Positions 38,564 through 59,873 of a stretch of DNA of 64,000 nt are shown piece after piece. The stretch comes from Caballeronia insecticola (GTDB taxonomy: Bacteria > Pseudomonadota > Gammaproteobacteria > Burkholderiales > Burkholderiaceae). A model generated the notes under the pieces. That model was not told the origin of the DNA, searched no databases, and saw only the letters and a list, made by a program, of their open reading frames with translations. The stretch covers positions 310,001 to 374,000 of the forward strand of contig NC_021289.1 in the NCBI RefSeq assembly GCF_000402035.1, read 5' to 3'. The position numbers and the translations under genes were made by a program. Position 1 is the first letter of the stretch. Every line of letters begins with the position of its first letter.

Positions 38564-38673
38564 GCTGTCTCCAGTCTCTCTGCTTGTTTAAACGATGGTG
38601 CAAGCATAGTCCCGCGCGTAGAATCGGAGTGATGTTATCCGGTCAAGCTTTTTGCGTATCTGGACGTCCGCAT

Positions 38674-41401: not shown

Positions 41402-41456
41402 CGGGACGTGAACCTCCGTCGTTGCGGAATGATTGCGCTTGCAACTATCGTCGCCA

Positions 41457-42500: not shown

Positions 42501-43844
42501 TCAGGTCGCGTCCGCGCTGGCTTCGCGCGCGGCAATTTCCGCTTCCTCGATCCGTCGATGCAGATTCTTCACGTCTTCGATGATCGGACCATAGCGGTCG
42601 GCGTCGTCGTTGAAGAAGCCGCGATGATAGAGCTTGCGGAAATTATGCTTGAGCAGCGGCTTGCTATAGTCCGGCGCTTCTCCCGAGCCGTAGATGATCT
42701 CCGGCGATTCGTCGCGCCAGAAGTTGATCGGTTCGAGCCCTTCCTCGACGCGGCGAATCTGCTCATCGAGTTGTCTGCGCAGCAGCACGATGGGAATGTC
42801 GGTGCGGCCGAGCAACTCTTGCGAACGATCGGTGATCGCGCCTTGCGCATCCCACACGAGCGCGTCCTGCGCCAGCACGTAGTCGAGGATCGGGCGGCCG
42901 GTCTCGTCGAAACGCGGCGGCTCGTACCACGGCACGCTGTCCTGCTTGGGCGCGTCAACGCCCGGCGGCGCGGCATAGACCTGATAACAGATGTGGTACG
43001 TGTGCTCGTCATCGATCGGCACGCGAATCTGATACTCGCTGCGCGGCGCGCCGGTCTTGCCCGTCTGCGTGAAGAACGGGAAGATCACGGTCGAATGTTC
43101 GCGCGTGTAGTCCTCGTCCGCGCCAAGATCCTTCGAATAGCGCACGCCCTTCGAAATGCCATGCGTGCTCGGATTCGCATACAGCTCCTTGATGCCGATG
43201 CCGGTCTTCAAACGCGTATGCAGCGTGTGCTCGGCGCGTGCGGCCGCTTCTTCATAACGGCCCTGTTTTTCCAGCACGTACTGGAACATGTGGCCATGCG
43301 CCCATGCGCTGTGGGTCGGGTCGCCGGTGTTCTCGTGACACTGCAGCCAGTTGCAGTCGATCTTCATGATAGCGATCTGACGAATCGCATTCGGCCACAC
43401 GAACAGATCCCAGCGCGGCAGCGCGGGCGCGGGCAGCGGTCCGAGATAAGCGAACACAAGTCCGCCCAGTTCCTGCACCGGATACGCCTTGAGCTTCTGC
43501 TTGATCTCGCCGCGCGGCGTGGCTTCCATGGGACGCTCGACGCATTTGCCGTCTTCGTTGAAGAGCCATCCGTGATACGGGCAACGCAAGCCGCACTGAT
43601 CCGGGATACCGAACTTCAAATCGACATTGCGATGCAGGCAGCGATCGCCGATAAGCCCCAGCGTGCCGCTCTTGTCTTTGTAGAGCACGAGGTCTTCACC
43701 GAGCACGCGCACCTTGTGCACGGGATTTTCATCGTCGAACTGGGAATAGGGCGCGATGGGAATCCAGTAGCGCCGCATCAGTTCGCCGCCCGGCGTGCCC
43801 GGGCCGACGCGCGTGAGTCTTTCGTTCATCGCTGCACTCAGCAT
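42501..43844 (-). CDS. Rieske non-haem iron oxygenase, phthalate-dioxygenase type (module A)
   Basis: A 447-residue oxygenase. The N-terminal Rieske site is CLH...CPYHGW (Cys-x-His and Cys-x2-His, 17 residues apart). The mononuclear iron site is GDPTHSAWAHGH, the Asp-x2-His-x4-His pattern. The opening LTRVGPGTPGGELMRRYWIP is typical of the phthalate 4,5-dioxygenase/O-demethylase branch, which uses two-component systems with a PDR-type reductase. Such a reductase is encoded 1 kb away at 44826. It is divergent from an IclR gene with tandem operators between. A GGAGA site supports the 43844 start. Confidence 0.92.
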   Translation of the reverse strand: MLSAAMNERLTRVGPGTPGGELMRRYWIPIAPYSQFDDENPVHKVRVLGEDLVLYKDKSGTLGLIGDRCLHRNVDLKFGIPDQCGLRCPYHGWLFNEDGKCVERPMEATPRGEIKQKLKAYPVQELGGLVFAYLGPLPAPALPRWDLFVWPNAIRQIAIMKIDCNWLQCHENTGDPTHSAWAHGHMFQYVLEKQGRYEEAAARAEHTLHTRLKTGIGIKELYANPSTHGISKGVRYSKDLGADEDYTREHSTVIFPFFTQTGKTGAPRSEYQIRVPIDDEHTYHICYQVYAAPPGVDAPKQDSVPWYEPPRFDETGRPILDYVLAQDALVWDAQGAITDRSQELLGRTDIPIVLLRRQLDEQIRRVEEGLEPINFWRDESPEIIYGSGEAPDYSKPLLKHNFRKLYHRGFFNDDADRYGPIIEDVKNLHRRIEEAEIAAREASADAT

Positions 43845-45860: not shown

Positions 45861-47132
45861 TCAATTCGCTTCGGCGGATTTGTCGAGTGCGATACCTTGC
45901 GCGACGTTCTTGCGCGGATCGCCTTGTTCGGGATAAGCATAAGGCCCGAGCCGAATGATCGAGATCACCGAGACGGCGACGAGTCCCGAGAAGACCCACA
46001 GCGCCAGATGGTACGAATGCGTGAGGTCGTAGCACAGACCGGACAGGAAGATCATGATGCCCGCGCCCCAGCCCCAGCATGCCCACATGCCGCCGCATAC
46101 ACGACCGAACAAACGCAGGTCGAAATAGCGGCTGACGATGAACGTGATGATGTCGGCCTCGGCGCCGATGCTAACGCCGATCATCGCTGACGCGGCCATC
46201 GCGGTGTCGCCCGTTGCGCCCGCCGCGAGAATCAGCACGCCGCACAGCGTCAGACCGAACGACATCGCCGCGACATAGGGCGCATGAACGCGGTCCATCA
46301 AATAGCCTGCAAACAAGCGCCCGACCGCAGAGGCAAGGCCCGCGATGGACAACATCGTGCCGGCCGCGCGCACGGTTTCGCCGCGATCGGTCATCATCGG
46401 AACGAGTTGCGAAAGCAACGCGAGCAAGACGCCGGACATGCAGAAGATCGCGATGCCCAGCAGACGGAACGTGCGGTCGTGACGGAAGATGGTCCATAAC
46501 GAAGGCAGATCGGCGCGCGCTTCACGCGCACGACGCGAGATCGATTCATCGACGCCGGGCGGCATCTTCACGAGGAAGTAAAGCGCGGGAATCGAGAGCA
46601 CGACCATCAGCGCGGCAACGCCGAGATAGCCGGTGCGCCAGCCGAAATGACGCAACAGATAGCCTGCGTATTGCGGCATCAGCATCGCGCCGATGGCCGT
46701 GCCGCCCACCGTGAGACCGAGCGCCAGTCCGCGCCGATGATCGAAGCGCGCGCACACGACCTTCGCATACGGCAATGCGTTGCTGCCCGGCGCGAAGAAG
46801 CCGACCATGACGAACACGAGGCAGAACAGTGCGAGCGACACGGGAATCACGCCGACGAGCGCAATGGAACCCGCAAACAACAGCAGAAAAACAAGCGTGG
46901 GACGACGCACGCCGAAGCGGTCGATGAGCGAGCCGAGCACGATCGTGCCCGGTCCCATCGCGAACTCGAAGATGGTGAGGCCGAGCGATACCTGCGCGCG
47001 GCTCCAGCCGTTCTCTGCGGCAATCGCCTTGATGAAGGTGCCGAACATGAACGCCGATATCACGCCCGCGCCGACGGAAAGGCAGATCGCGCCACCGAGG
47101 ACGGTCCACCATCGATTGATGTCTTGCTTCAA
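45861..47132 (-). CDS. MFS transporter (monocarboxylate/oxalate-antiporter-like)
   Basis: A ~423-residue, twelve-helix carrier with MFS motifs GSLIDRFGVRRP and GYLMDRVHAPYV. It probably imports the acid substrate or exports a product. A TTG at 47132 is favoured because AGGAGA lies seven bases upstream and the protein then starts right before the first helix. A GTG at 47189 (442 residues) overlaps the previous stop but has no ribosome site. It is the last gene of the operon led by the module B oxygenase. Confidence 0.85.
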   Translation of the reverse strand: MKQDINRWWTVLGGAICLSVGAGVISAFMFGTFIKAIAAENGWSRAQVSLGLTIFEFAMGPGTIVLGSLIDRFGVRRPTLVFLLLFAGSIALVGVIPVSLALFCLVFVMVGFFAPGSNALPYAKVVCARFDHRRGLALGLTVGGTAIGAMLMPQYAGYLLRHFGWRTGYLGVAALMVVLSIPALYFLVKMPPGVDESISRRAREARADLPSLWTIFRHDRTFRLLGIAIFCMSGVLLALLSQLVPMMTDRGETVRAAGTMLSIAGLASAVGRLFAGYLMDRVHAPYVAAMSFGLTLCGVLILAAGATGDTAMAASAMIGVSIGAEADIITFIVSRYFDLRLFGRVCGGMWACWGWGAGIMIFLSGLCYDLTHSYHLALWVFSGLVAVSVISIIRLGPYAYPEQGDPRKNVAQGIALDKSAEAN

Positions 47133-47185
47133 AGCCGTGTCTCCTGCATGTCCGCGTTTGAGTTCGGGGACGATTCGTTGGTGCG

Positions 47186-47695
47186 TCACGCGCCGAGCGC
47201 GGCGAGCAGATCTTCCAGATAGCCCGCGCTGACGGGAAGAATCAGCATCGTGCAGTGGGGACGCAACAGGTCTGCGGTGCGGGCCGATTCACGTCGATGG
47301 CCGCAAGGTCCGATCACACCCGATACGGTCACGCCCCGGCTGCGATACGCCTGCGCCGCAACCGCGCCCGCTTGCGCATCGTCGCCTTCGCGGCCGGCGA
47401 TCACCACGAGGTCCGGCGTGCCGAGCCACGCGTTCAATGCGGACGCGTTGGCATCGACGCTGCGCAGAATGCTCGCGGCATCGGCGCCTTCGGTTTGCAA
47501 CAGCGCGGCGAGTTCGCTTGCATGCACGAACTGCACGTCGGCGTGTGTGCGCTCGGTGCGCTCGGCGCATCTTCGCACTTCCGCATCGTCATTGGTAAGA
47601 GCAATGACCCTGATGCGGCGCGGCGCGGAATTCGCAGCGCGCACTCTGAACCGCACTTCCGAAGGCGCGCGATGGTCGGGCGTGGTCACTGCCAT
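47186..47695 (-). CDS. Uncharacterised protein of the module B operon
   Basis: A 169-residue protein I do not recognise. It is Ala/Arg-rich with no signal peptide or membrane helix. The pattern alternates strand and helix: an early RIRVIALTNDD strand, PDLVVIAGREGDD, GVTVSGVIGP and a final MLILPVSAGYLEDLL. This suggests a small Rossmann- or flavodoxin-like alpha/beta fold. It contains three cysteines. It overlaps the dehydrogenase gene by 10 bp, so it is certainly co-translated with catabolic genes. Confidence 0.75.
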   Translation of the reverse strand: MAVTTPDHRAPSEVRFRVRAANSAPRRIRVIALTNDDAEVRRCAERTERTHADVQFVHASELAALLQTEGADAASILRSVDANASALNAWLGTPDLVVIAGREGDDAQAGAVAAQAYRSRGVTVSGVIGPCGHRRESARTADLLRPHCTMLILPVSAGYLEDLLAALGA

Positions 47696-48822
47696 GGATC
47701 GATCGTCATGTGAATGGCGCCTTCCACGCCTTCGCCTTGCAAGGTGCGCAAGGCGAGATCGGTGTCGTCGAGGCCGAAGGTATGCGTGCTCATCTGCGTG
47801 ACATCGTGGCGATTCGCGGCGATGAGTTGCAGCGCCAGTTCGACCGATTGATAACTATGCCCGCGCATGCCCTTCACCGTGAGGAAGCGCGCGATGATCA
47901 TGTCGCTGTTGAACTCGGGAATCGGCACGCGCTTCTGGCCGCCGAGCACGACGGTGCCGCGCTTGCGTGCAAGCTGGATCGCGGACGTGACCGTGGCGGG
48001 TCCGCCCGATGCGCAATCGATGACGAGATCCGCCATCGCGCCGCCCGTCAGATCGGCGACACGTTCGAGCACGTCTTCCTGATCGACTTCTATAACATGG
48101 TCCGCGCCCAGCCGCTTCGCGAGTGCGAGCCTTTGCTTGTCGGTCTTCGTCGACAGCCCCGTCACGATGATCTTGGCCGCGCCCGCTTCACGCGCCGCGA
48201 CCACACACGACAGACCCTGCTGTCCAGGCCCCTGAATAACGACTGCCTGACCCGGCCCCGCGCCGCCTTGCAAATAAGCCCACTCGATACCGTTGCCGAG
48301 CGGAAGTGCAAGCGCGGCATGTTTCGGCGCGACCGTCGACGGCACGCGATGAAACACCGTATTCAGTTGCAGGTACTGGTACTGACTGAAGCCGCCCCAA
48401 AAACTCGGTGCAGTGCGCAAGCCGGTTGCGCCATAGCGCAGTCCGTTGAGACGCCAGTCGGTGGCATCGCAAAGACGGAACTCGTTGGAGAGACAGTATT
48501 CGCAATGGCCGCACGGCACGTACTCTTCGAGCGCGACGTAATCGCCTTCTTTCAGGCCCCAGCGTGTGCGCGCGAGTTCGCCCGCTTCCTCGATATGCCC
48601 GACCGTTTCGTGCCCGAGAATCAACGGGCCACGGCTTTGCGGCAATTGACGATAGTAGGGCGCATCGCTGCCGCATACGCCGGTGATCGCAACGCGCAAG
48701 AGTCCCGTCGATGACGTGATGTCCGGCCGCTCGAAGGTCTGAATCTCGGTGCGCGACGGCTCGACCGCAACCGCGGCCTTGAAGGTACGCGAGGATTCGC
48801 TATGTCGATGTGCTTCGTTCAT
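47686..48822 (-). CDS. Zinc-binding alcohol dehydrogenase (module B)
   Basis: A 378-residue medium-chain dehydrogenase: catalytic zinc motif GVCGSD and GHETVG, four structural-zinc cysteines (PCGHCEYCLSNEFRLC), and nucleotide motif GPGQQG. It should oxidise an alcohol or diol with NAD(P)+. Its place 47 bp after the oxygenase gene suggests it acts on the hydroxylated product, a job done by unrelated dehydrogenase families in classic phthalate pathways. Confidence 0.9.
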   Translation of the reverse strand: MNEAHRHSESSRTFKAAVAVEPSRTEIQTFERPDITSSTGLLRVAITGVCGSDAPYYRQLPQSRGPLILGHETVGHIEEAGELARTRWGLKEGDYVALEEYVPCGHCEYCLSNEFRLCDATDWRLNGLRYGATGLRTAPSFWGGFSQYQYLQLNTVFHRVPSTVAPKHAALALPLGNGIEWAYLQGGAGPGQAVVIQGPGQQGLSCVVAAREAGAAKIIVTGLSTKTDKQRLALAKRLGADHVIEVDQEDVLERVADLTGGAMADLVIDCASGGPATVTSAIQLARKRGTVVLGGQKRVPIPEFNSDMIIARFLTVKGMRGHSYQSVELALQLIAANRHDVTQMSTHTFGLDDTDLALRTLQGEGVEGAIHMTIDPWQ

Positions 48823-48869
48823 GCATCAAGGCGTGCGAGATTCGAAGGAATCGCGCACGCGTGCCCTCG

Positions 48870-50156
48870 TCAGATGGTGGTGTGTGCCTTGCCCGCTTCC
48901 GCGTGAAGCGCGTCGTGCGCGCCTTCCTTGAACGGCTTCTCGCGATGCAGAACGATTGCGACCGAGCGCACCTTCTGCGATTCGGGATCGCGTCCCGGCG
49001 GCTCGATGCCCTTCTCGGCGAGCGCACGCGCCGCTTTCATCAGACGATGCCGCACCATGATGATGCCGTTGTCCGTCGAGACGAGGTTCTCGCGCGTGCG
49101 GTCCTGAATCGGCCCCATGCTCTCTTGCAGCGACGCATCCTGCATCGCGATGCCTTCTACGCCGCTGTACGTGATGCCCGCTTTCTGCGCGGCACGGTCC
49201 ATCAGATAGTTGTTGGTCTTGTTCTGCAGCGGAATATACGTGCCGGGGATATAGCGCACGTGGATGCCCTTGCCGTCTTTCATCGCCTGCACTTCGGCTT
49301 CGGTGAGATCGCGTGTCGGATGGTAGTCGAAGCTCCATGCCCAGCAGTTCTCGTCGTCGATCGGTACCCAGAAGTGGCCGTGTACCGGATGATCGCCGCG
49401 CGGCGGGACCATCGTGAAGCAGGGCATGACCCACGGCGTGATGCGCCAGTAGTACTGGTCGTCTTCCGCATTGCGCCGTGCGCCGATGAAAAGACCGCCT
49501 TCGGATTCCACTACTTCGAACACCGGGCTCAGGTCAGACAAGTTGTATTGATTGCCGCGCGAGCCCTTGAACAGCGGGTCCGTGTTGAGGCTGCCGCTAT
49601 GCAGAAACGAAACGTGGCTCGAATCGACGCCGCCTTCCAGCGCCTGAAGCCAGTTGCATTCCTGAAGACGCTTGCTCATGAACGACTGACTCAACGGCAC
49701 GGTCGAGAACTCGAACGCAGGTAGCGGCGGCTGCTCGTCCTTCGGGCCCATATAGACCCAGATCACGCCGCCTTGCTCGACGAGCGGATACGACTTCAGC
49801 TTGATCTTGTTGCAGTAGCCGCTCGCAGCCGGTTCCGACGGCACATCGACGCATTGTCCGTTCACATCGTATTTCCAGCCGTGATACGGGCAGCGGATGC
49901 CGCCTTCCTCGTTGCGCCCGAACCAGAGCGAGACGCCGCGATGCGCGCAGAACTCGTCGATGAGGCCGAGCTTTCCTTCCGAATCGCGAAACGCCAGCAT
50001 GCGCTCCGACAGCAGTTGCAGACGCACCGGTTCGCCGCCCGGCTCGGCGAGTTCCTCGGAAAGCAGCGCGGGCAGCCAGAAGCGCCGGAACAGTTCGCCC
50101 ATCGGCGTGCCGGGGCTGGTTTGCGTGACCAGGTCGTTTTGCTCTTTTCTCAACAT
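48870..50156 (-). CDS. Rieske non-haem iron oxygenase (module B)
   Basis: A 428-residue oxygenase alpha subunit. The Rieske ligands are CAHRG and CPYHGW. The catalytic iron site GGVDSSHVSFLHSG gives Asp-x2-His-x4-His. The start MLRKEQNDLVTQTSPGTPMGELFRRFW places it with phthalate-dioxygenase-like enzymes. No beta subunit is encoded nearby, as usual for that branch. Unlike classic members it has a separate ferredoxin gene, divergent and 190 bp away, and an FNR-type reductase at 57767. It heads an operon with the dehydrogenase, the 169-residue protein and the MFS carrier. Confidence 0.93.
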   Translation of the reverse strand: MLRKEQNDLVTQTSPGTPMGELFRRFWLPALLSEELAEPGGEPVRLQLLSERMLAFRDSEGKLGLIDEFCAHRGVSLWFGRNEEGGIRCPYHGWKYDVNGQCVDVPSEPAASGYCNKIKLKSYPLVEQGGVIWVYMGPKDEQPPLPAFEFSTVPLSQSFMSKRLQECNWLQALEGGVDSSHVSFLHSGSLNTDPLFKGSRGNQYNLSDLSPVFEVVESEGGLFIGARRNAEDDQYYWRITPWVMPCFTMVPPRGDHPVHGHFWVPIDDENCWAWSFDYHPTRDLTEAEVQAMKDGKGIHVRYIPGTYIPLQNKTNNYLMDRAAQKAGITYSGVEGIAMQDASLQESMGPIQDRTRENLVSTDNGIIMVRHRLMKAARALAEKGIEPPGRDPESQKVRSVAIVLHREKPFKEGAHDALHAEAGKAHTTI

Positions 50157-50259
50157 AGTGCTTGCCTCAGGTTTGCTGTCGTCTCTCGACGTGTGTTCGT
50201 GTGATTGTGTGGAGCGGGCGGGCCGTTTCTTACGGTTCTTTTTGTGTTGCTTTTGATTT

Positions 50260-50296
50260 GTTCCGTATAAAGGAACGCTGTTCTTTAAACAGGAAC
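50260..50296. promoter_or_regulatory. Tandem IclR operators at the oxygenase/ferredoxin promoter
   Basis: GTTCCGTATAAAGGAAC (50260-50276) is followed at exactly 20 bp by GTTCTTTAAACAGGAAC (50280-50296). The first is an exact reverse complement of the sites at 55233 and 56883. The inner TATAAA can serve as a -10, so bound regulator would touch the promoter directly. Confidence 0.8.
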
Positions 50297-50345
50297 AAAG
50301 TTATCATTGGACCCATTCCATGTCAAACGGAGAAGGAGATAACCG

Positions 50346-50672
50346 ATGCATCAAGCTTGCGAATTTGCCCGCCTCTGCAAAGCCGGCGACGTTGCCGAAG
50401 GTCAGGCCATCAAGATCGAAAAGAACGGCCTCACGCTGGCTGTGTTCAACATTCAGGGCGAGTACTTCGTCACCAACGACACGTGCACGCACGGCCCCGG
50501 ATCGTTGTCCGAGGGTTATATCGACGGCGATGTGGTCGAGTGCGATTTCCATAACGGTTCGTTCAACATCAAGACGGGCGAAGTTGTTGCGCCGCCGTGC
50601 ATGATTCCGCTCAAGACGTACAAGACGCATGTCGAGGACGGCGAGGTGGCAATCGAGATCGACAGCGAATGA
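50346..50672 (+). CDS. Rieske-type ferredoxin (module B)
   Basis: A 108-residue Rieske ferredoxin with ligands CTHGPG and CDFHNG. It should carry electrons from the reductase to the module B oxygenase. The start has an excellent ribosome site (GGAGAAGGAG). It is the only gene on this transcript and converges with the CobW gene, leaving 25 bp between stops. Confidence 0.94.
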   Translation: MHQACEFARLCKAGDVAEGQAIKIEKNGLTLAVFNIQGEYFVTNDTCTHGPGSLSEGYIDGDVVECDFHNGSFNIKTGEVVAPPCMIPLKTYKTHVEDGEVAIEIDSE

Positions 50673-50697
50673 CACATCCGCAAGGACGCGTGCGTGA

Positions 50698-51633
50698 TTA
50701 GCGCATCGCGTTCGCTTTCACGATCAACGTAAGGCCGCTCTTTACTTCGTCGGCCTTCATGGATGCGTATGTGATTTGCGCGCGTGCGTCGCCGCGTGCG
50801 AACTGCACGATTGCGATCGAGTCACGGTCTTTCATGCGCACCAGACCTTTCAATCTCAGCAGCGATTCACCGTATTGCTTCTGGATGTCGAGAACGTGTG
50901 TGTGCAGCGTGTCGATATCGGAGGCTTCATCGATGGCGAGGAAATGCGTCACGGCATCGTGCGCACGGAGTCGCGAGAAGGGCAGCGCGAAGGTGCTTTC
51001 AGCGCGTGGCGCGGGTTGAGCGAGAAGCGCGAGCGCATCGTGTAGCCCGAAGCTCGCGTGGGCCGAATGCGCGATGCGCGCGCCAGGATATGCATCCCTC
51101 AGTTTTGCTTCGGCAAGAACGAGTTCTTCTGCATCGACGAGATCGGTCTTCGTGACGATCACCGCATCCGCGCCTTGCAACTGTGCGCGCGCGACGCTTT
51201 CACGCGCGAGCGTATCGATCGCGTTGTTTGCGGCGATGGTCGTGAACGTGCCCGCAATGCGATAGCGCTCCTTCACGAACGCATTGAGACTCAACGCCGC
51301 GACGAGCGGCCCCGGATCCGCAAGCCCGGTCGTTTCGATGACCACCATCTCGAAGCGCGCAACGCTCCGATGCAGCCGCGCCCAGAACAATTGTTCGAGC
51401 GCTTCGTTCAGCGCGGGCAGGCCGCTGCAACAGACGCATGCATCGGCGAGCAGCATCGATGCATCGCCCGAGAATCCGAGCGTTGCGTGATCAATACCGA
51501 CTTCGCCGATTTCATTGACGATGAGTGCGGCGTTGCAGAAGGGCGCTTCCTTCAGCCAGCGCGACAGCAGCGTAGATTTGCCACTGCCGAGAAAGCCAGT
51601 CACGACATAAACGGGGATACGTTCGCGAACCAT
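50698..51633 (-). CDS. CobW/P47K-family G3E GTPase metallochaperone
   Basis: A 311-residue GTPase: Walker A GFLGSGKST (13-21), metal-binding CxCC at 66-69 (CVCC), ETTG switch region and VTKTDLVD for guanine specificity, followed by a CobW C-terminal domain. G3E proteins insert metals (Zn, Co, Ni, Fe) into client enzymes. Its position as last gene of the binding-protein/ABC/aldolase operon suggests a client in this pathway, for example the aldolase-like enzyme or the zinc dehydrogenase (inference). Confidence 0.9.
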   Translation of the reverse strand: MVRERIPVYVVTGFLGSGKSTLLSRWLKEAPFCNAALIVNEIGEVGIDHATLGFSGDASMLLADACVCCSGLPALNEALEQLFWARLHRSVARFEMVVIETTGLADPGPLVAALSLNAFVKERYRIAGTFTTIAANNAIDTLARESVARAQLQGADAVIVTKTDLVDAEELVLAEAKLRDAYPGARIAHSAHASFGLHDALALLAQPAPRAESTFALPFSRLRAHDAVTHFLAIDEASDIDTLHTHVLDIQKQYGESLLRLKGLVRMKDRDSIAIVQFARGDARAQITYASMKADEVKSGLTLIVKANAMR

Positions 51634-51645
51634 GTGCGACGACGA

Positions 51646-52359
51646 TCAGTCGCCGCGCGCGCCGAGCTTGCCCGCGTGATAGTCCCAGACCTTCTGCAGC
51701 AGATTGGGCTTCCACAGATTGCGCCGGATCGCTTCGATCTGTTCGGCATCGAGCACAGCGGGCTCGCCGAGCTGGCTCGCGAGATACTGCCGATGCGCGT
51801 TCTCTTCGAGATAGAACGCGAGCACGAACGCTTCGAGAATGCTCGATGCCGCGATCACGGAGCCATGCGACTTCATCATGGCGACGCGATGCGGCCCGAG
51901 TGCCTCGGCCAGTTCCTCGCCGAGTTCCTTGCGATTGATCGAAGCGGTCTTGGGGAAACGCTGAATCTCGCCGAGCACGGCTGCTTGCATGATGACGGGC
52001 AGCACGGCTTTGCCTGTCATGCTGAAGAGCGTGGACCAGAGCGGATGCGCATGAATCACCGAGCCGACATCCGGCCGTCTGCGATAGATCTCCGAGTGAA
52101 TGTGAAACTCCATCGGCGGAACGGCATCGCCTTCGATCAGATTGCCGTCGAAATCGATGATGACGATATCGGCCGCAGTCAGCGCGCTGCGCACCGATGC
52201 CCCCGAGTTGATCAGCATGCGCTCCTGACCGGGCACGCGCCAGCTTGCGTGCCCGTTGAAGTCGATCACTTCGGCGCGTTCCAGCATGAGGATCGCGTCG
52301 GCCAGCATGCGCTTCTGGCCCGTGTGGCTTTCGGTTTGAATCGTTGCGGTCGAATTCAT
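51646..52359 (-). CDS. Class II aldolase/adducin-family protein
   Basis: A 237-residue protein with the metal-binding histidines in VIHAHPLW and SHGSV and a Glu in PPMEFHIHSEIY. The family includes fuculose-phosphate aldolase and also the 3,4-dihydroxyphthalate decarboxylases. In this context decarboxylation or retro-aldol cleavage of an oxygenated ring acid is plausible. It follows the permease gene by 25 bp and precedes the CobW gene by 12 bp. Confidence 0.87.
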   Translation of the reverse strand: MNSTATIQTESHTGQKRMLADAILMLERAEVIDFNGHASWRVPGQERMLINSGASVRSALTAADIVIIDFDGNLIEGDAVPPMEFHIHSEIYRRRPDVGSVIHAHPLWSTLFSMTGKAVLPVIMQAAVLGEIQRFPKTASINRKELGEELAEALGPHRVAMMKSHGSVIAASSILEAFVLAFYLEENAHRQYLASQLGEPAVLDAEQIEAIRRNLWKPNLLQKVWDYHAGKLGARGD

Positions 52360-52384
52360 GACGTAACGTAATGATAATGAGCGT

Positions 52385-53218
52385 TCAACGCGACGACTTC
52401 CACGGAATCAGCTTGCGTTCGAGTTCGGTGAGCAAGACCGATATGCCGTAGCCCAACGCGGCGATCACGAGCAGGCCGACATACATCGTCTCTACGGAGA
52501 GCAGCTCCCACGCGTTCCAGATCATGTAACCGAGGCCGCTCTTCGAACCGATCATCTCGGCGATGGCGATCAGCATGAGACCCAGACCGATGCCAAGCTT
52601 GATGCCGCTCATGATGTGCGGCACCGCGCCGGGCAGCGCAATCGTGCGGAAGACCTGCCAGCGGCTCGCGCGAAAGTTGCGGCCCACGTCGAGATAAATC
52701 TTGTTGATTTCGAGCACGCCCGTCGCGGTATTGATGAGCACCGGAAAGAACACGCCGATCGCGACCATCACGATCTTCGACGCTTCGCCCAGACCGCAGA
52801 TCAGAAGCAGGAGCGGAAAGATCGCGCTCTTCGGCACGGGATAGGTCGCGGCGATCAACGGATCGAACACGGCGCGCAACGGACGTGAAAGACCGATGGC
52901 GACACCGAGAATCAGCGCCGGAATGCCGCCCGCGAGCGTGCCCCAGAAGAGACGTTGCAGCGTGGCCCAGGTGTTGTCCCAGAGCGAGCCGTCGTTGACG
53001 AGGCCGATGAATGTGCCAAACACCTTCGACGGCGCGGGGAAAAAGCGTTCATCGATAATGCCTGTTTCCGCGAGAATCTGCCACACGATGAGCAACACGA
53101 TCGGCGATGCGATGCTGATCATGCGGTCGCGGTTATTGCCCGAGAACCAGCGCTTGAGCCGTGAAGGCGGGGACGTGTATTGCATTGCGGGTGCGGTAAG
53201 TTTTTGCGCGGTTTTCAT
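52385..53218 (-). CDS. ABC permease, nitrate/sulfonate/taurine type
   Basis: A 277-residue, six-helix permease of the SsuC/TauC class with the coupling loop GRNFRASRWQVFRTIALPGAVPH. It forms the channel with the adjoining ATPase; the two genes overlap by 4 bp. Related transporters carry phthalate-type acids in Burkholderia, so an aromatic acid is a reasonable substrate. Confidence 0.92.
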   Translation of the reverse strand: MKTAQKLTAPAMQYTSPPSRLKRWFSGNNRDRMISIASPIVLLIVWQILAETGIIDERFFPAPSKVFGTFIGLVNDGSLWDNTWATLQRLFWGTLAGGIPALILGVAIGLSRPLRAVFDPLIAATYPVPKSAIFPLLLLICGLGEASKIVMVAIGVFFPVLINTATGVLEINKIYLDVGRNFRASRWQVFRTIALPGAVPHIMSGIKLGIGLGLMLIAIAEMIGSKSGLGYMIWNAWELLSVETMYVGLLVIAALGYGISVLLTELERKLIPWKSSR

Positions 53219-54060
53219 GCGTGAATCTCGCCAAGGTCGCGTGAACGGGCGCGCTGAACTTCGTCGCGCAGTTGTCCCCAGATGGAATAGACGAACTCGC
53301 CGTATTCGGGCCGTGAGCGAAGTTCGAGCACGGAGCGCGGACGTTCGAAAGGCACATCGACGATCTGTTTGGCCGTGCCCGGCTGCGCGGTCATGATCAT
53401 CACGCGGTCGCCGAGCGTCACAGCTTCATCGACGCTATGCGTGATAAAGAGCACCGTCTTGCGCGTCTCTTCCCAGATGCGCAGCAACTCTTCCTGCAGC
53501 AGGACCTTGTTCTGCTCGTCGAGTGCGGAGAAGGGCTCGTCCATCAGAAGGATGTCGGGATCGTTCGCGAATGCGCGCGCGATCGATACACGTTGGCGCA
53601 TGCCGCCCGACAGTTGATGCGGATAAGCCTTGGCAAAACGCGTGAGACCGGTGCGGCTCAAATAATGGCCGACCACTTCGCGGATCTGCGCCTTCGGCAC
53701 GCCGCGCAAAGCGAGACCGTAGGCCGCGTTGTCCCACACCGTCATCCAGGGAAAGAGCGAATCGCCCTGAAATACCATCGAATTGCTCGGGCGCTTTTCC
53801 GCGGGCGCGCTGATCTCGACGCTACCGCTCGTCGGCTCGTCGAGGTTCGCGAGGATGCGCAGCAGCGTGGACTTGCCGCAGCCGCTCGGACCCACGATCA
53901 TGAAGAAGCAGCCCGTTGGAATATCGAGCGACATGTTGTCGAGCGCGGTAACCACACCGCCGCCCGATTGAAACGACTTCGTCAAATTGCGCAGGCGAAT
54001 CTTCGCAGGCGGCTCGCTGGCGGCGGGCGGTGCGTCGTCGAGAATGGAGGGAATCGACAT
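53215..54060 (-). CDS. ABC ATPase, nitrate/sulfonate/taurine type
   Basis: A 281-residue ATPase with Walker [11 protein letters not shown], signature LSGGMRQRVSIARA and Walker B ILLMDEPFSALDE. It energises the SsuC-like permease. AAGGAG precedes the start, and the gene lies 9 bp after the binding-protein gene. Confidence 0.93.
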   Translation of the reverse strand: MSIPSILDDAPPAASEPPAKIRLRNLTKSFQSGGGVVTALDNMSLDIPTGCFFMIVGPSGCGKSTLLRILANLDEPTSGSVEISAPAEKRPSNSMVFQGDSLFPWMTVWDNAAYGLALRGVPKAQIREVVGHYLSRTGLTRFAKAYPHQLSGGMRQRVSIARAFANDPDILLMDEPFSALDEQNKVLLQEELLRIWEETRKTVLFITHSVDEAVTLGDRVMIMTAQPGTAKQIVDVPFERPRSVLELRSRPEYGEFVYSIWGQLRDEVQRARSRDLGEIHA

Positions 54061-54069
54061 GCCGGCTCC

Positions 54070-55128
54070 TTACTTAAGCGGTTTGTACGGGCCGAGTTCC
54101 TTCACGGCGTTTTCGGCGAACGATGTGTCGAGCACTTGCGCGACCGTCACGTTGCCCTTCACGACGCCCTCGCTCTTGAAGAACGCGAGATCGTTCTCGA
54201 GGCTCGGCACGTTGAGCTTGCCATCCGGATTCGTGCCCTGCGGCACGATCGTGCGATAGATGTTGGGGTCTTTGATCGGCGTGTATTCGGTGAGGATCGA
54301 AATCACTTCCGGTGCGTTCGGCCCGGCGATCTTGCCGTTCGAGAGCGCGTTGTTGTAGTCGCGCACGGCGCGGATATAGGCGCGCATGAAGGCCTTCGCC
54401 GCTTGCGGATGTTCCTTGATGAAGCCCGTCGAATAGAGCACGACCGCGAGCTGATGATTCGGATAGATTTGATCGTCGCCGACCACGCGCACGGCAGCGC
54501 CGCGTTTGACGGCTTCCGTTGCCGACGGTTCGGTGGTGAGCGCGGCATCGACCGCCTTGTTCTGCAGTGCCATCACGTGCTGCGGAAACGAGAGATAGAT
54601 GCGCTCGACGTCGCTCGTCTTGAGGCCGGCTTTCTTGAGTGCCTCGTTCATGGTCGACGTGGATGCACTGCCCGTTGCGCTCCCCGCCACCTTCATGCCC
54701 TTCAGGTCGGCGAGCGATTTATAGCGGCCGTTCGCCACGAGATCGCTGCGCACGAGTAGCGGCTGATAACCGTAGCCCGGCGGCGTCGAGCCCTTGTCTG
54801 CCACGATCTTGATGCCGATGCCGCGCACCACCGCGTTATACAGCCCCGCCGATGGCGAGCCGCCCGCGACATCGAGCTGACCTGCACCGAGCGGCGCGAC
54901 CATCTTGGCGCCGGAGTCGAACGGGATGAATTTCGCGTCGAGCCCTTCCTGACGGAAGTAGCCCTTTTTCTCCGCGATGAAGAACGCGACGTCGCTGCTC
55001 GCGTTGGCGATGCCGATTCGCACGGTCGTCAAATCGGCAGCACTGGCCGCCACCGATCCGAGCGCGACCCACGCGACGAGCGTCGCGCCCAATACGCTGA
55101 CTCCGCAGACTCCCCTGACTCCTTTCAC
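54070..55128 (-). CDS. ABC substrate-binding protein, SsuA/TauA/NMT1 type
   Basis: A 352-residue periplasmic binding protein: signal peptide ending near ASA (about residue 30), then LTTVRIGIANASSDVAFFIAEKKGYF and a two-lobe fold. The start is a GTG at 55128, set by AAGGAG seven bases upstream. A longer ATG start at 55251 would place the operator at 55233-55249 inside the coding region and add a very basic, unsuited leader, so it is rejected. It is first in a five-gene operon. Confidence 0.88.
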   Translation of the reverse strand: MKGVRGVCGVSVLGATLVAWVALGSVAASAADLTTVRIGIANASSDVAFFIAEKKGYFRQEGLDAKFIPFDSGAKMVAPLGAGQLDVAGGSPSAGLYNAVVRGIGIKIVADKGSTPPGYGYQPLLVRSDLVANGRYKSLADLKGMKVAGSATGSASTSTMNEALKKAGLKTSDVERIYLSFPQHVMALQNKAVDAALTTEPSATEAVKRGAAVRVVGDDQIYPNHQLAVVLYSTGFIKEHPQAAKAFMRAYIRAVRDYNNALSNGKIAGPNAPEVISILTEYTPIKDPNIYRTIVPQGTNPDGKLNVPSLENDLAFFKSEGVVKGNVTVAQVLDTSFAENAVKELGPYKPLK

Positions 55129-55232
55129 TGCATGTCTCCTTGATCGAACTTCTGCAAGCAATCTTCGATGAAGCGCGGCGCCCGCGCGCCGTGCCTGTCG
55201 ATATGACCAGGGAAACAGCGTGGGGCGCTTGC

Positions 55233-55269
55233 GTTCCTTTATACGGAACATCGTATCTTGTAATGGAAC
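55233..55269. promoter_or_regulatory. Tandem IclR operators upstream of the ABC/aldolase/CobW operon
   Basis: GTTCCTTTATACGGAAC (55233-55249) is identical to the site before the IclR gene and reverse-complementary to the one at 50260. A degenerate copy with an intact GGAAC half (GTATC-N7-GGAAC, 55253-55269) follows at the same 20-bp step. It lies about 105 bp before the GTG start. Confidence 0.8.
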
Positions 55270-55312
55270 AACCTTAGCATTGGCTAAATCGCGGTGTCAA
55301 TGCGAAACGCAA

Positions 55313-56449
55313 TCAGAAGCGATGACGCAGCGAGAGCTTGACCGCCACCTGGTTGGGCGTGCTCGACTGTCCGAGCGAGCCGATGGCTGCAACGGCGGGC
55401 TTGCCGGTCGAATCGATTCCCGATGCGTGCTGCCACACGCCGACGAGATTCAGGTCGGTGCGCTTGGAGAAAAAGTAGTCGGGCCCGAAATCCACCTGTT
55501 CGTATTTCGCGGATTCGGCCTTCGTATAGTCGAAGGATGCGGCGACCTGCAACGTCGGAATCACGAACCAGCGCGCATTGATTTCGTAGCTGTTGAAAGT
55601 TGCCTTGCCGGTGTTCGGCGTGGTCGGCGTGCGCAAAATGTCGTTGAAACGCGTGTTGGTATAGACGAAGCCGACCTTGCCCGCGCCGAAGCTGTACGAG
55701 ATGCCCGCGCCAAAAATCTCGACCGAGTTCGCCGACGCATAGCCGCTATAGACAGGGCTTTTGCCCGGCGACGTATAGCCCGCCGCGCCCGGATTCACGG
55801 TGCCGTCGTAAGCGGAGATCGACGGGTTGTTCACGTTGTCGTAGGCGATGGCCGCCGTGATCGGGCCGTTCACATAGTTCGCCGCGAGCGTGTAGACGCG
55901 GCCCGATGCGAAGTCGCCCGCCACGCCGCCCGGCGCGAAGATGCCGGACAGACGCAGGCCATACAGATTCGGCGACACGTACTTCACCGCGTTGTTGACG
56001 CGGAAGTTCGAGTTGAGATTATCGAAGTCGCCCGGATGCGTGCCGACCCAGGCCCAGATCGACGTCGCGGCGATTTCGCCGATCCATTCGGTCATCGGAT
56101 CATACTGACGGCCCAACGTGACCGTGCCATAGGGACTCGACAAGCCGACGAACGCTTGCCGGCCGAACTCGCGTCCACCTTGAAGCAGCTTGCCGTTCGA
56201 CGTATCGAAGCCGTTCTCGATCGTGAAGATCGCCTTCATGCCGCCGCCGAGATCTTCGGAGCCGCGCAAACCCCAGCGGCTTCCGTTCGTCTGCCCCGTC
56301 ACAGTCTCGATGTTCGAGTGTCCCGACTGATTGTTGATGTAGACCAGACCGGCGTCGAGCAGACCGTAAAGCGTGACCGAGCTTTGAGCGTGGGCGACGC
56401 CCGCTCCGGCAAGTACGGGAAGTGCGAGAAACAGCGCTGTCTTTTTCAT
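55313..56449 (-). CDS. Gram-negative porin (Burkholderia trimeric type)
   Basis: A 378-residue porin with signal peptide MKKTALFLALPVLAGAGVAHA, first strand SSVTLYGLLDAGLVY, the NGSRWGLRGSEDLGGG motif, the constriction-loop region and a terminal Phe (LSLRHRF). It should let small anions cross the outer membrane. The operator upstream and the adjoining ABC genes suggest a substrate-specific role, similar to the phthalate porin described in Burkholderia. A GGAG ribosome site precedes the ATG. Confidence 0.93.
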   Translation of the reverse strand: MKKTALFLALPVLAGAGVAHAQSSVTLYGLLDAGLVYINNQSGHSNIETVTGQTNGSRWGLRGSEDLGGGMKAIFTIENGFDTSNGKLLQGGREFGRQAFVGLSSPYGTVTLGRQYDPMTEWIGEIAATSIWAWVGTHPGDFDNLNSNFRVNNAVKYVSPNLYGLRLSGIFAPGGVAGDFASGRVYTLAANYVNGPITAAIAYDNVNNPSISAYDGTVNPGAAGYTSPGKSPVYSGYASANSVEIFGAGISYSFGAGKVGFVYTNTRFNDILRTPTTPNTGKATFNSYEINARWFVIPTLQVAASFDYTKAESAKYEQVDFGPDYFFSKRTDLNLVGVWQHASGIDSTGKPAVAAIGSLGQSSTPNQVAVKLSLRHRF

Positions 56450-56683
56450 GGGGTCTCCGTCCCTTGTTTCATAGTGATGCCGGCTCGTCGAACCGGGATG
56501 CTTTGCTGCGGAATCTTTTGATCGTCTTATTTTTGGACAGGCTAATTAATTCGGATAACTAAGCGAATATTTACCTCCTGCGCTGTTGGGCGAACCGTCT
56601 TCGAACGAATGTTCGTGCACTCTCGTTGCTAGTGGCGCGGCGACCCGGGCTAAAAAAGCGATGAAATCGGGGGCTGCCAAATC

Positions 56684-56700
56684 GTTCCGCTATACAGAAC
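56684..56700. promoter_or_regulatory. IclR-type operator on the porin side
   Basis: GTTCCGCTATACAGAAC keeps the 5-7-5 layout with one half-site mismatch (AGAAC for GGAAC). It lies 235 bp upstream of the porin start and 183 bp from the next site. A weak second half-site (GGGAC) follows about 33 bp on. Confidence 0.6.
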
Positions 56701-56882
56701 GATGGTCTGTTAAAATGGGACGAATCGAGTTTCTCTTTGTTTAGGTCCCTAAGTCAAGCGGAACGAAAGCTCTTCAGGGTTATTCCGCATCCGTGCAGCG
56801 CGGCAACGTCCGGAATTCGAACGATTCGTTGTTTTTGAGTCGCGAACGGTAATGCAGCGGCGTGCGGGCTATCGTTCTGAAC

Positions 56883-56919
56883 GTTCCTTTATACGGAACG
56901 CTATTCCATTTATGTGTTC
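56883..56919. promoter_or_regulatory. IclR autoregulatory operator
   Basis: GTTCCTTTATACGGAAC (56883-56899) lies 35 bp before the IclR start codon. A degenerate copy starts at 56903 with one good half (ATTCC), again at a 20-bp step. The position fits autorepression. Confidence 0.75.
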
Positions 56920-56933
56920 GTGAGGTATATTCG

Positions 56934-57740
56934 ATGAAATCAGAGGCAACGCCGAACGAAGCGCAGAAGGAGGAAGGGCCGCAGCGTCTGTCGTCGGTGA
57001 CGGCGGCGCTCCAGTTGCTCAAGGTCTTCTCGGAACATGAGCCGGAGCTTGGCATCAGCGTGCTCGCGAAGCGCATGGGCATTGCGAAAAGCACGGCACA
57101 CCGGCTCGCAAGCGCGCTGCTCGCGGAAGGCATGCTGGAGCAGAACGAGGAGAACGGGCGTTACCGGCTCGGTATTCAGTTGTTCACGCTTGGCGCGCTC
57201 GTGCGGCGCAGGTTCGACGTAGCGAAGCAGGCCGTGCCGTTCCTGCACGTGCTGCGCGAACACACCGACGAAACCGTGCATCTCGCGGTGCTGGACGATA
57301 CGAGCATCGTGTACCTGTTCAATCTCGAGAGCGATCAGGCTATCCGCATGCGTTCGTATATCGGCGTGCGCAAACCTGCGTTCTGCACCGCCGAAGGTCA
57401 TGTTTTGCTGGCTTCGCGCACGCCCGACGTCGTGTCGCGTGTGCTGAAGGAAGGACTTACGGCGCGCACGCCGAAGACCAACACGGACACGCAAGTGTTC
57501 CTGAAGACGCTGGAAGCGGCGCGGCGCGACGGTTACTCGATCGACGACGAAGAGTCGGAGGTCGGCATGCGCGGCATCGCGGCGCCCGTGCGGGATATCT
57601 CGGGCAACGTGGTGGCCGCAGTGGGTGTCGGCGGTCCGGCGCAGCGGCTTACGAAGAAGGCGCTGCGCGCAGCGGTTCCGCATTTGCTTACCGCGGCCGA
57701 AGGTATTTCCGCCACGCTCGGATACCACAGGCTGCTATGA
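56934..57740 (+). CDS. IclR-family regulator of module B
   Basis: A 268-residue regulator: winged helix (LGISVLAKRMGIAKSTAHRLA, about 39-59) and an effector domain with GVRKPAFCTAEGHVLLA and GMRGIAAPVRDISGNVVAAVGVGGP. The ATG at 56934 follows GAGGT and gives standard length; the longer frame start at 56862 would put the operator inside the gene. It is the obvious candidate to bind the repeated 17-bp palindromes and is co-transcribed with the reductase and decarboxylase-like genes. Confidence 0.92.
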   Translation: MKSEATPNEAQKEEGPQRLSSVTAALQLLKVFSEHEPELGISVLAKRMGIAKSTAHRLASALLAEGMLEQNEENGRYRLGIQLFTLGALVRRRFDVAKQAVPFLHVLREHTDETVHLAVLDDTSIVYLFNLESDQAIRMRSYIGVRKPAFCTAEGHVLLASRTPDVVSRVLKEGLTARTPKTNTDTQVFLKTLEAARRDGYSIDDEESEVGMRGIAAPVRDISGNVVAAVGVGGPAQRLTKKALRAAVPHLLTAAEGISATLGYHRLL

Positions 57741-57766
57741 AATAACTCTTGAAACAAGGTGGATTC

Positions 57767-58807
57767 ATGCATTCGGACGGCCACGCAAATCGCATCACGC
57801 TCGCAGCATCTGATCAATCTTTCGAATGCGAGGCCGGCGATGTGATGCTGCGCTCGGCCTTGCGCGCGGGCGTCGCGTTTCCGTACGAGTGCAACGTGGG
57901 TGCATGCGGCAACTGCAAGTTCGAACTGATCGAAGGCGAGGTCGATGTCGTATGGCCCGAGGCGCCCGGCTGGACCGCAAAGGACCGCGAGCGGCGCCGC
58001 TATCTCGGTTGTCAGAGCGCGCCGCGTGGCGACTGTACGATCAAGATGCGTCCGTCCGCGCACTATGCGCCGAAGCACACGCCGCGCCGTGTGACGGCTA
58101 CGCTGGTCGCGCGTCGAGAGATTACGCACGACATCGAGGAATTCCGTTTCGAGCTTTCCGCCGACATGCCTTTCGAGCCGGGCCAGTATGCGCTGCTGAC
58201 GCTTCCGGGTGTCAAGGGCCCGCGCGCGTACTCGATGAGCAATATCGTCAACGCCGGCAGTCAGCCGCGCGAGCTGCACTTCCAGATTCGCCGCGTGGCG
58301 AACGGGCAGGGCACCGGCGTGCTTTTCGATGCGCTCGATATAGGCGCGCACATCGACATCGACGGGCCTTATGGCATGGCGTATCTGCGCCGCGATGTGA
58401 AGCGCGACATTCTCTGCATCGCGGGCGGCTCGGGCCTTGCACCGATGATCTCGATTGCACGCGGCGTCGCGGCCGAACCCGCGCTCGGCGACGTCAAGCT
58501 GCATTTCCTCTATGGCGGGCGCACGCCGCGCGACGTGTGCGGCCGCGACATGCTCGAAGCATTGCCGGGCTGGGCCGAACGCCTGCATTTCCAGGCCGCT
58601 GTATCCGATGTCACGCCCGATAGCGAAACCGTCTGGGACGGTCACGTCGGCTTCGTGCATACGGTTGCCGAAACGCTCTTCGGCGAAGCACTGCGCGACA
58701 TGGAGATCTATTTCGCCGGGCCGCCTGCGATGGGCGCAGCCGTGCAGCGCGCACTCGTTGCGTTGAAGGTGCCGTTCGAGCAGGTGCACTTCGATCAGTT
58801 CTATTGA
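57767..58807 (+). CDS. FNR-type oxygenase reductase with N-terminal 2Fe-2S (module B)
   Basis: A 346-residue reductase: N-terminal plant-type 2Fe-2S (CNVGACGNC and a later LGCQS), FAD domain (PRAYSMSN) and NAD domain (IAGGSGLAPM, FAGPPAMG). This layout is that of class I-III dioxygenase reductases and differs from the C-terminal-cluster PDR proteins in modules A and C. It should reduce the ferredoxin at 50346. The ATG at 57767 is preceded by AAGGTGG and lies 26 bp after the IclR stop. Confidence 0.92.
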   Translation: MHSDGHANRITLAASDQSFECEAGDVMLRSALRAGVAFPYECNVGACGNCKFELIEGEVDVVWPEAPGWTAKDRERRRYLGCQSAPRGDCTIKMRPSAHYAPKHTPRRVTATLVARREITHDIEEFRFELSADMPFEPGQYALLTLPGVKGPRAYSMSNIVNAGSQPRELHFQIRRVANGQGTGVLFDALDIGAHIDIDGPYGMAYLRRDVKRDILCIAGGSGLAPMISIARGVAAEPALGDVKLHFLYGGRTPRDVCGRDMLEALPGWAERLHFQAAVSDVTPDSETVWDGHVGFVHTVAETLFGEALRDMEIYFAGPPAMGAAVQRALVALKVPFEQVHFDQFY

Positions 58808-58880
58808 CTCGCACAAGACGAAGCGAGCGCCGCCTGAATCTTCAGGCCTGAATCCTTAAACACGCTGCCAGGAGCAGACC

Positions 58881-59873
58881 TTGTCCAAGCTGAGACTCAC
58901 TTTCGGATGCTGGAATTACGACCGCACGCGCGCCCTGATGGACGGCAGCGTGCAGCCCGACGGCATCGACCTCAATTATCTGAACATGCCGGTGGAAGAG
59001 ACGTTCTTTCGCATGCTGCGGCATCATGAGTTCGATGCATCGGAGATGTCGCTGTCGTCCTACACGATGTCGTGCTTTCGCGAGCCGCGTCCGTTCATCG
59101 CGATTCCGGTGTTCCCGTCGCGCTTCTTTCGTCATTCGTGCATCTACGTGAATGCGGATTCGGGCATTGAGAAGCCGCAGGATTTGATCGGCAAGCGCAT
59201 CGGCAATCCGGAATATCAGATGACCGCGCCCGTCTGGATTCGCGGCATTCTGTCGGATCATTACGGCGTGCCGGTCGACAGCGTGACGTATTACACCGGC
59301 GGCGAAGAAGAGCCGAACCGGCCGGAAAAGCTCAAGCTCGATTTGCCTTCGAACATTCGCGTCGAACAAATTGGCCCGGACAAGACGCTTTCGCAGATGC
59401 TGCTCGACGGCGAGATCGATGCGCTCTATACCGCGCGCATGCCTTCTTCGTTTGTGAATGGTCAGAGGCGCGTGAAGCGTCTTTTCGAAAACTATATCGA
59501 TGTCGAGCGTCAGTACTTCCGCGACACGAAAATGTTCCCGATCATGCATACGGTCGTGCTCAGGCGCGAAGTCTATGAGGCCAATCGCTGGGCCGCGCAA
59601 TCGCTTTATAAGGCATTGATCGAGTCGCAACGCCGCACGTATGCCGATCTCAACGAAACCGCCGCGCTCAAGTCGATGTTGCCCTGGCTGAATGCGCACG
59701 TCGAAGAGACGCGCAAGGAAATGGGCGACGATTTCTGGCCTTATGGTCTCGACAAGAATCGCGAAAACCTGCGGACGTTCCTGCGATATTCGTATGAGCA
59801 GGGCTTATCGAAGCGCCTGCTCGAACCGGCAGAAATCTTTGCGCCGGAGACGTTCGAGTCGTTCAAGATCTGA
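58881..59873 (+). CDS. 4,5-dihydroxyphthalate decarboxylase-like protein
   Basis: A 330-residue protein matching the Pht5/OphC family: SKLRLTFGCWNYDRTRALMDG at the start, GIDLNYLNMPVEETFFRM and PSRFFRHSCIYVN. The fold is related to periplasmic binding proteins, but there is no signal peptide, as expected for the enzyme. It would remove a carboxyl group from an oxygenated ring acid. Translation starts at a TTG with AGGAG six bases upstream. It is the third gene of the IclR-led transcript. Confidence 0.85.
   Translation: MSKLRLTFGCWNYDRTRALMDGSVQPDGIDLNYLNMPVEETFFRMLRHHEFDASEMSLSSYTMSCFREPRPFIAIPVFPSRFFRHSCIYVNADSGIEKPQDLIGKRIGNPEYQMTAPVWIRGILSDHYGVPVDSVTYYTGGEEEPNRPEKLKLDLPSNIRVEQIGPDKTLSQMLLDGEIDALYTARMPSSFVNGQRRVKRLFENYIDVERQYFRDTKMFPIMHTVVLRREVYEANRWAAQSLYKALIESQRRTYADLNETAALKSMLPWLNAHVEETRKEMGDDFWPYGLDKNRENLRTFLRYSYEQGLSKRLLEPAEIFAPETFESFKI

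Follow-up and report, generated by a model that had tools for sequence, protein, structure and literature searches.

A predicted local IclR-family regulon with tandem operators in a probable aromatic-acid gene cluster of Caballeronia insecticola

A gene cluster at positions 45861-59873 of a 64,000-nucleotide stretch of the Caballeronia insecticola genome (assembly GCF_000402035.1, contig NC_021289.1, positions 310,001 to 374,000, forward strand; hereafter the window) contains four copies of a 17-bp palindrome, denoted Operators A to D, together with a gene for an IclR-family regulator (56934..57740, + strand). The cluster probably degrades an aromatic acid. We consider it highly probable, on the basis of DNA comparisons, that the product of the gene at 56934 binds the four sites as operators of a single local regulon and would repress the cluster until an aromatic acid releases it. 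The control circuit itself is well known in kind, and the comparisons point to a local IclR regulon that is real and well conserved. With respect to a preliminary description of this DNA, the base count of the fourth site is corrected, and a tandem register and a promoter geometry are added.

The primary palindrome of Operator A, GTTCCGTATAAAGGAAC, lies at 50260..50276 (given as a + strand match), between the oxygenase operon on the − strand and the ferredoxin gene on the + strand, and was aligned with 17 related betaproteobacterial sites. The same 17 bases recur exactly, as − strand matches, at 55233..55249 (Operator B, upstream of the ABC/aldolase/CobW operon) and at 56883..56899 (Operator D, whose last base is 34 bp 5′ of the iclR start codon; 13 aligned sites including that of the window). 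The coordinates of these three copies agree with the preliminary description. Operator C (GTTCTGTATAGCGGAAC, 56684..56700, − strand match, upstream of the porin gene; aligned with 17 sites from other loci) had been counted there as a one-mismatch version; 3 of its 17 bases differ, one in the arms and two in the core. The identity over all 17 bases had been judged to be far beyond chance. At up to three mismatches the window has four matches to GTTCCGTATAAAGGAAC, where 100 dinucleotide shuffles of it average 0.01. The emphasis on the centre was dropped because the centre varies among orthologous sites while the arms are kept.

In the complete genome (6,964,487 bp), a tolerance of three mismatches returns six places, four of which are the window sites, whereas a backwards control returns 12; at that tolerance, therefore, only the exact copies and their clustering are distinctive. 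A relaxed motif, GTTCYNNTATNNRGAAC, which was picked only after the orthologous sites had been inspected, has exactly four matches in the whole 6.96-Mb genome, with none for the control, and these are the four operators. The genome-wide scan that had been proposed thus finds the motif to be rare outside the cluster; frequent occurrence elsewhere, named earlier as evidence against a single regulon, is not observed.

Each palindrome is accompanied by neighbouring half-sites at 20 bp, which had been overlooked. At Operator A a second palindrome-like copy (GTTCTTTAAACAGGAAC, 50280..50296, boxes 3 and 4) stands in exact 20-bp register with the first; in the class-A sites box 4 reads GAAC in 18 of 18 and box 3 reads GTTC in 17 of 18. 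The second unit of Operator B (55253..55269), in the same 20-bp register, has a degenerate box 3 and an intact box 4, GGAAC, the latter found in all seven class-B sites. Operator C has a degenerate second unit at 56704..56721, with a register, judged by eye, of about 20-21 bp, and Operator D has a box 3 (ATTCC, 56903..56907) in 20-bp register, where TTCC is kept in 13/13 class-D sites. For a pooled count, sites with intact GTTC and GAAC arms and at most three mismatches were taken from the window and 45 loci, 46 sources in all, provided that they were clear of contig ends, and identical copies were removed. Allowing one mismatch per box, 85 of the 95 unique sites have, on one side or both, a third or fourth box in exact 20-bp register, while 18 other spacers give 0-12. 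Among 13 loci with the same layout (the window, L007-L015 and L020-L022), Operators A, C and D are each conserved in 13, and Operator B, the least conserved of the four, in 7. Five class-C loci (L016-L019 and L061) are without an adjacent porin gene.

The −35-like boxes near the operators are directed towards them. A putative promoter of the oxygenase operon (50300..50326, − strand), comprising TTGACA (50321-50326), N15 and GATAAC (50300-50305), would read leftward into Operator A, and a comparable candidate for the ABC operon (55273..55300, − strand) comprises TTGACA (55295-55300), N16 and GCTAAG (55273-55278). The probable −35 box of the porin promoter, TTGACT, is at 56752..56757 (− strand). 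In the betaproteobacterial loci, the minus strand to the right of A and B carries TTGACA-N15/16 followed by GATAAC or GCTAAK, the exceptions being L016, L027, L028 and L061. Of 38 class-A sites assigned by hand, 37 have TTGAC at a distance of 50-55 bp from the palindrome and the remaining one (L016) only at 9 bp; this set excludes L033, in which the oxygenase has the opposite orientation, as well as the loci not assigned to class A (among them L034, L040, L043, L045, L051-L058 and L060). In all seven class-B sites the distance is 51 bp, and 16 of the 18 class-C sites have TTGAC at 54-57 bp. When both sides of 97 unique sites, selected as for the register count, are considered together, 61 of the 95 TTGAC occurrences directed at the palindrome fall at 50-57 bp, compared with 1 of the 24 directed away from it. 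Taking these boxes as −35 elements, transcription would start near box 4 and the tandem would span approximately +1 to +35, which is a position suited to a repressor. The operator may thus lie immediately 3′ of the promoter in the case of the oxygenase and ABC operons, and possibly also of the porin gene.

In Caballeronia, Paraburkholderia and Pigmentiphaga, the left flank of the class-A sites has no consistent promoter for the ferredoxin gene. TTGAC is present on this side in 13 of the 38 sites, 11 of them alphaproteobacterial (between L036 and L050), the others being L030 and L061. In 11 of the 12 alphaproteobacterial class-A loci (between L036 and L050; the exception is L035) there is a second promoter-like pair, TTGACC-N17, such that the two pairs are face to face with the operator between them.

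This geometry also bears on the direction of control, since the same protein could act on the same sites as an activator, in the manner of PcaU and PobR, with promoters other than those proposed here. Three-box operators are known from these two proteins, which are called activators in reference titles (PMC8222616), and in class A the + strand carries a TATCAT 5 bp past box 4; judged by eye, a ferredoxin promoter there would have the tandem at approximately −46 and −26. The TATCAT, however, overlaps the reverse complement of the proposed −10 region, and the TTGAC boxes face the operators at a near-fixed distance that places the operators downstream of promoters. Membership of the PcaR/PcaU/PobR group was also rejected, the protein scoring 168.7 bits where the TIGR02431 cutoff is 284.75. 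Activation appears to us unlikely.

The assignment of the sites to this particular regulator comes from their distribution. An orthologue of the IclR protein (E 1e-60 or better) is present in 13 of 58 genomes of the genus, and in all 13 at least two sites (at most two mismatches) share a contig, within about 7 kb. No such grouping exists in the 45 genomes without the orthologue, of which 34 lack any match and 11 have matches but not more than one per contig. The p value of this co-occurrence is 3e-13, computed as if the genomes were independent, which they are not. A wider sample consisted of 55 named loci from beta- and alphaproteobacteria (908 kb), with IclR identities of 49-99%. At least one site is found in 49 of them and two or more in 29, giving 105 sites compared with one for the reversed pattern, and the gene content near the sites varies between the Caballeronia, Paraburkholderia, Pigmentiphaga and alphaproteobacterial loci.

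Relatives of the oxygenase (E 1e-120 or better) occur at 30 places in 28 of 299 genomes of the family, scoring the best five candidates per genome, and the IclR protein is present in 9 of the 299, from the best eight candidates. At nine places the oxygenase is on the contig of the IclR gene, with 70-100% identity, and all nine have a site within 1.5 kb. The other 21 oxygenases, at 49-53% identity, have no site; 19 are in genomes lacking the IclR protein, and two (L110 and L111) are second copies, with the IclR gene elsewhere in the genome. The proposal of a single regulon under the 56934 protein is therefore strongly supported by comparison at three levels: co-occurrence in the genus, the 49 of 55 loci, and the oxygenase places (9/9 against 0/21).

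The same distribution is relevant to whether another regulator, for example a different IclR paralogue of the same genome, binds the sites. The motif subgroup is common to 54 orthologous groups (PMC8222616), and on first look the genome has 43 candidate IclR-like stretches. Yet one protein alone in the genome matches at E 1e-60 or better, and the sites follow the orthologues of the 56934 protein across taxa and gene orders. In L034, for example, a site lies directly upstream of the IclR gene, with no oxygenase relative within the 20.8 kb examined. We regard binding by another regulator as very improbable. That the copies are relics of a dispersed repeat or recent duplication, without regulatory function, as the identity of three copies across all 17 bases in this strain might suggest, is hardly credible and was rejected, given that the flanks are unrelated by eye except for the register boxes, that the motif is absent elsewhere in the genome, and that relatives keep the arms and vary at the centre.

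Several observations weigh against a single repressed regulon. Related genomes are not independent, so that the counts given above are inflated relative to the number of separate events. For the 21 oxygenases that lack a site, identity is just 49-53%, and hence they also represent another group. Six of the 55 IclR loci have no site at three mismatches or fewer, and two of these, L032 and L049, have no GTTC-N9-GAAC-like palindrome of any kind. Operator B is not found at this tolerance in 6 of the 13 same-layout loci (L007, L012, L013, L014, L015 and L020), although L012 retains TGTCAA at the corresponding position. As for the promoters, a strict sigma-70 scan of three promoter regions returned no promoter in any of them, the −10 boxes are poor, and the −35/−10 pairs of class C and of many alphaproteobacterial class-A loci score no better than shuffles, so that the start sites are estimates. 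In the window, TTGAC does not occur within 100 bp to the left of Operator D, and a ferredoxin promoter is not recognisable in Caballeronia.

The product of the gene at 56934 has the two domains expected of the family, with scores above the cutoffs for both the IclR helix-turn-helix domain (HTH_IclR, PF09339, 50.9 bits; cutoff 22) and the effector domain (IclR_C, PF01614, 154.6 bits; cutoff 24). The core of the recognition helix, KST..RL, is kept in 56 of 56 aligned IclR sequences. In the survey of Suvorova and Gelfand (PMC8222616), Lys28 is correlated with a preference for G/C at positions 7/25, and His32 with a weak one for C at position 10; by eye, the recognition helix of the present protein has a lysine and a histidine at the presumed corresponding places. 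Two further family assignments were tried and rejected, KdgR (182.8 bits; NF011671 cutoff 275) and BhcR (173.6 bits; NF045644 cutoff 350).

We propose that each operator comprises a palindrome, whose two half-sites would accommodate one dimer, and, at a distance of some two helical turns, a third and sometimes a fourth half-site. Two dimers could then bind next to each other on the same face of the helix. Bound in this way, the IclR protein would block transcription of the oxygenase and ABC operons, and perhaps of the porin gene, until a substrate or intermediate of aromatic-acid degradation releases it. Operator D, in front of iclR, would provide autoregulation.

The operators resemble those of a known subgroup. 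According to the parts of the 2021 survey by Suvorova and Gelfand available here (PMC8222616), which spans 181 orthologous groups, the GTT-11-AAC subgroup of IclR operators has the 17-bp palindrome GTTYCRYW3RYGRAAC, and tandem units 18-22 bp apart are found in 94 orthologous groups without being obligatory. GTTCCGTATAAAGGAAC fits this consensus, by hand, at 16 of 17 positions, and the present system shares with the subgroup the palindrome, the tandem spacing (20 bp here) and the small local regulons. Sites are placed in that work relative to gene starts, whereas here they are placed relative to promoter boxes. IphR of Comamonas sp. E6, an IclR-family repressor of an isophthalate operon, likewise uses a palindrome with an additional downstream half-site, but its operator sequence, GTCTCATCAGAC, differs (PMC8222616, PMC13040137). 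Unlike the IphR system, the present cluster includes a ferredoxin, a BenC-like reductase, a 4,5-dihydroxyphthalate decarboxylase homologue, an ABC transporter and a CobW-family protein, on five putative transcripts. The operators of PcaU and PobR of Acinetobacter have an external direct half-site repeat, as here (PMC8222616), but these are activators with another half-site sequence, and the 56934 protein is below the cutoff of their model. PheR of Sphingobium sp. SHPJ-2, an IclR repressor, has a 44-bp footprint from +23 to −21 of its target start, a length close to that of the tandem, and differs in its core motif, GCAACG, and in its substrate, phenanthrene (PMC13273656). A literature search with the motif string found no paper, supplementary tables being outside its reach. 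Among the matches listed for IclR with phthalate, Caballeronia with IclR and oxygenase, and NK8 with IclR, mostly judged without full text, no title or abstract describes the regulon, and no match listed for NK8 with IclR contained both terms.

The genes of the cluster would form five transcripts of 4, 1, 5, 1 and 3 genes, as deduced from gene spacing. The count of fourteen genes on five transcripts put forward previously is reproduced in this way, and the extent of each transcript is a prediction. The oxygenase operon, on the − strand, would consist of a Rieske ring-hydroxylating oxygenase (48870..50156), a Zn-alcohol-dehydrogenase-like protein (47686..48822; all NCBIfam matches below cutoff), a 169-residue protein without a Pfam match that overlaps both neighbours (47186..47695) and, as its end gene, an MFS transporter (45861..47189). 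The Rieske ferredoxin gene (50346..50672) is on the + strand. The ABC operon, on the − strand, would begin with an NMT1/SsuA-like solute-binding protein (54070..55128). Its start is probably the GTG at 55128, because an upstream ATG at 55251 would turn Operator B into coding DNA. It is followed by an ABC transporter ATPase (53215..54060) and permease (52385..53218), a class II aldolase-fold protein (51646..52359; PF00596), possibly a decarboxylase, which matches the 3,4-dihydroxyphthalate decarboxylase model below cutoff, and a CobW-family GTPase (50698..51633). The porin gene (55313..56449, − strand; Porin_4) would be transcribed on its own, while iclR would be co-transcribed with a BenC-like ferredoxin reductase (57749..58807, + strand; best NCBIfam match BenC, below cutoff) and a 4,5-dihydroxyphthalate decarboxylase homologue (58881..59873, + strand; PDB 9jp7, E 3.8e-80, residues 1-330).

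The oxygenase gives some indication of the substrate. Aligned with the isophthalate dioxygenase (IPDO) of PDB entry 9INA, it shows 53% identity (191 of 360 pairs). In IPDO, R234 and H257 contact the carboxylates (PMC12445078). Both residues are kept, F333 is replaced by isoleucine, and F249 is replaced by an arginine (Arg253 here); a histidine at the F249 position, together with V178A, widened the substrate range of the dioxygenase (PMC12445078). This pocket comparison and the dihydroxyphthalate decarboxylase homologue suggest, as a lead only, a phthalate-like acid, with an isophthalate-like acid likely and possibly with one more acidic group.

One switch would now link an uncharacterised oxygenase, a decarboxylase homologue, a transporter and a porin. 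Since the exact operator, its register and candidate promoters are available, reporter fusions could reveal the inducer, which in turn would point to the probable pathway substrate. Biosensors have been suggested as a use for the regulators of phthalate catabolic clusters (PMC13040137). A broader and more doubtful possibility, which we put forward only tentatively, is that the protein represents an undescribed group of IclR repressors with an architecture shared by beta- and alphaproteobacteria. In such a group the operator would comprise three to four boxes over about 37 bp, at an almost constant 50-57 bp past the −35 box. In the 11 of 12 alphaproteobacterial class-A loci described above it would lie between face-to-face promoter-like elements, so that a single bound tetramer could block both directions. 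The acid concerned might then not be one of the three simple phthalates, in view of the extra arginine in the pocket where the isophthalate dioxygenase has F249.

Some minor features of the region were also recorded. A second Rieske oxygenase is encoded to the left of the cluster, at 42501-43844, and further left are an aldo/keto reductase (41457-42479), a solute-binding protein (40322-41509) and an AraC-type regulator (38506-39708); none of the four operator sites falls in this region. The CobW-family GTPase has 74-84% identity in nine close Caballeronia loci, which is below that of most neighbours. A separate palindrome-like element, TTAGGTCCCTAA, at 56741-56752 of the window, overlaps the probable −35 box of the porin promoter, and similar elements recur in Caballeronia class-C loci (TTAGGTTCCTAA in L009 and L010; TTAGGAACCTAA in L015 and L020). 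All four operators, with 1-3 mismatches, are also found on the 1.68-Mb replicon pNK81 of Caballeronia sp. NK8 (locus L116, at 12004, 16828, 18250 and 18429), in a record without gene annotation at this locus. Finally, three Paraburkholderia loci have extra copies of the motif (L016 at 17177; L018 at 12359, 15198 and 17823; L019 at 11671 and 17757), which suggests a larger regulon there.

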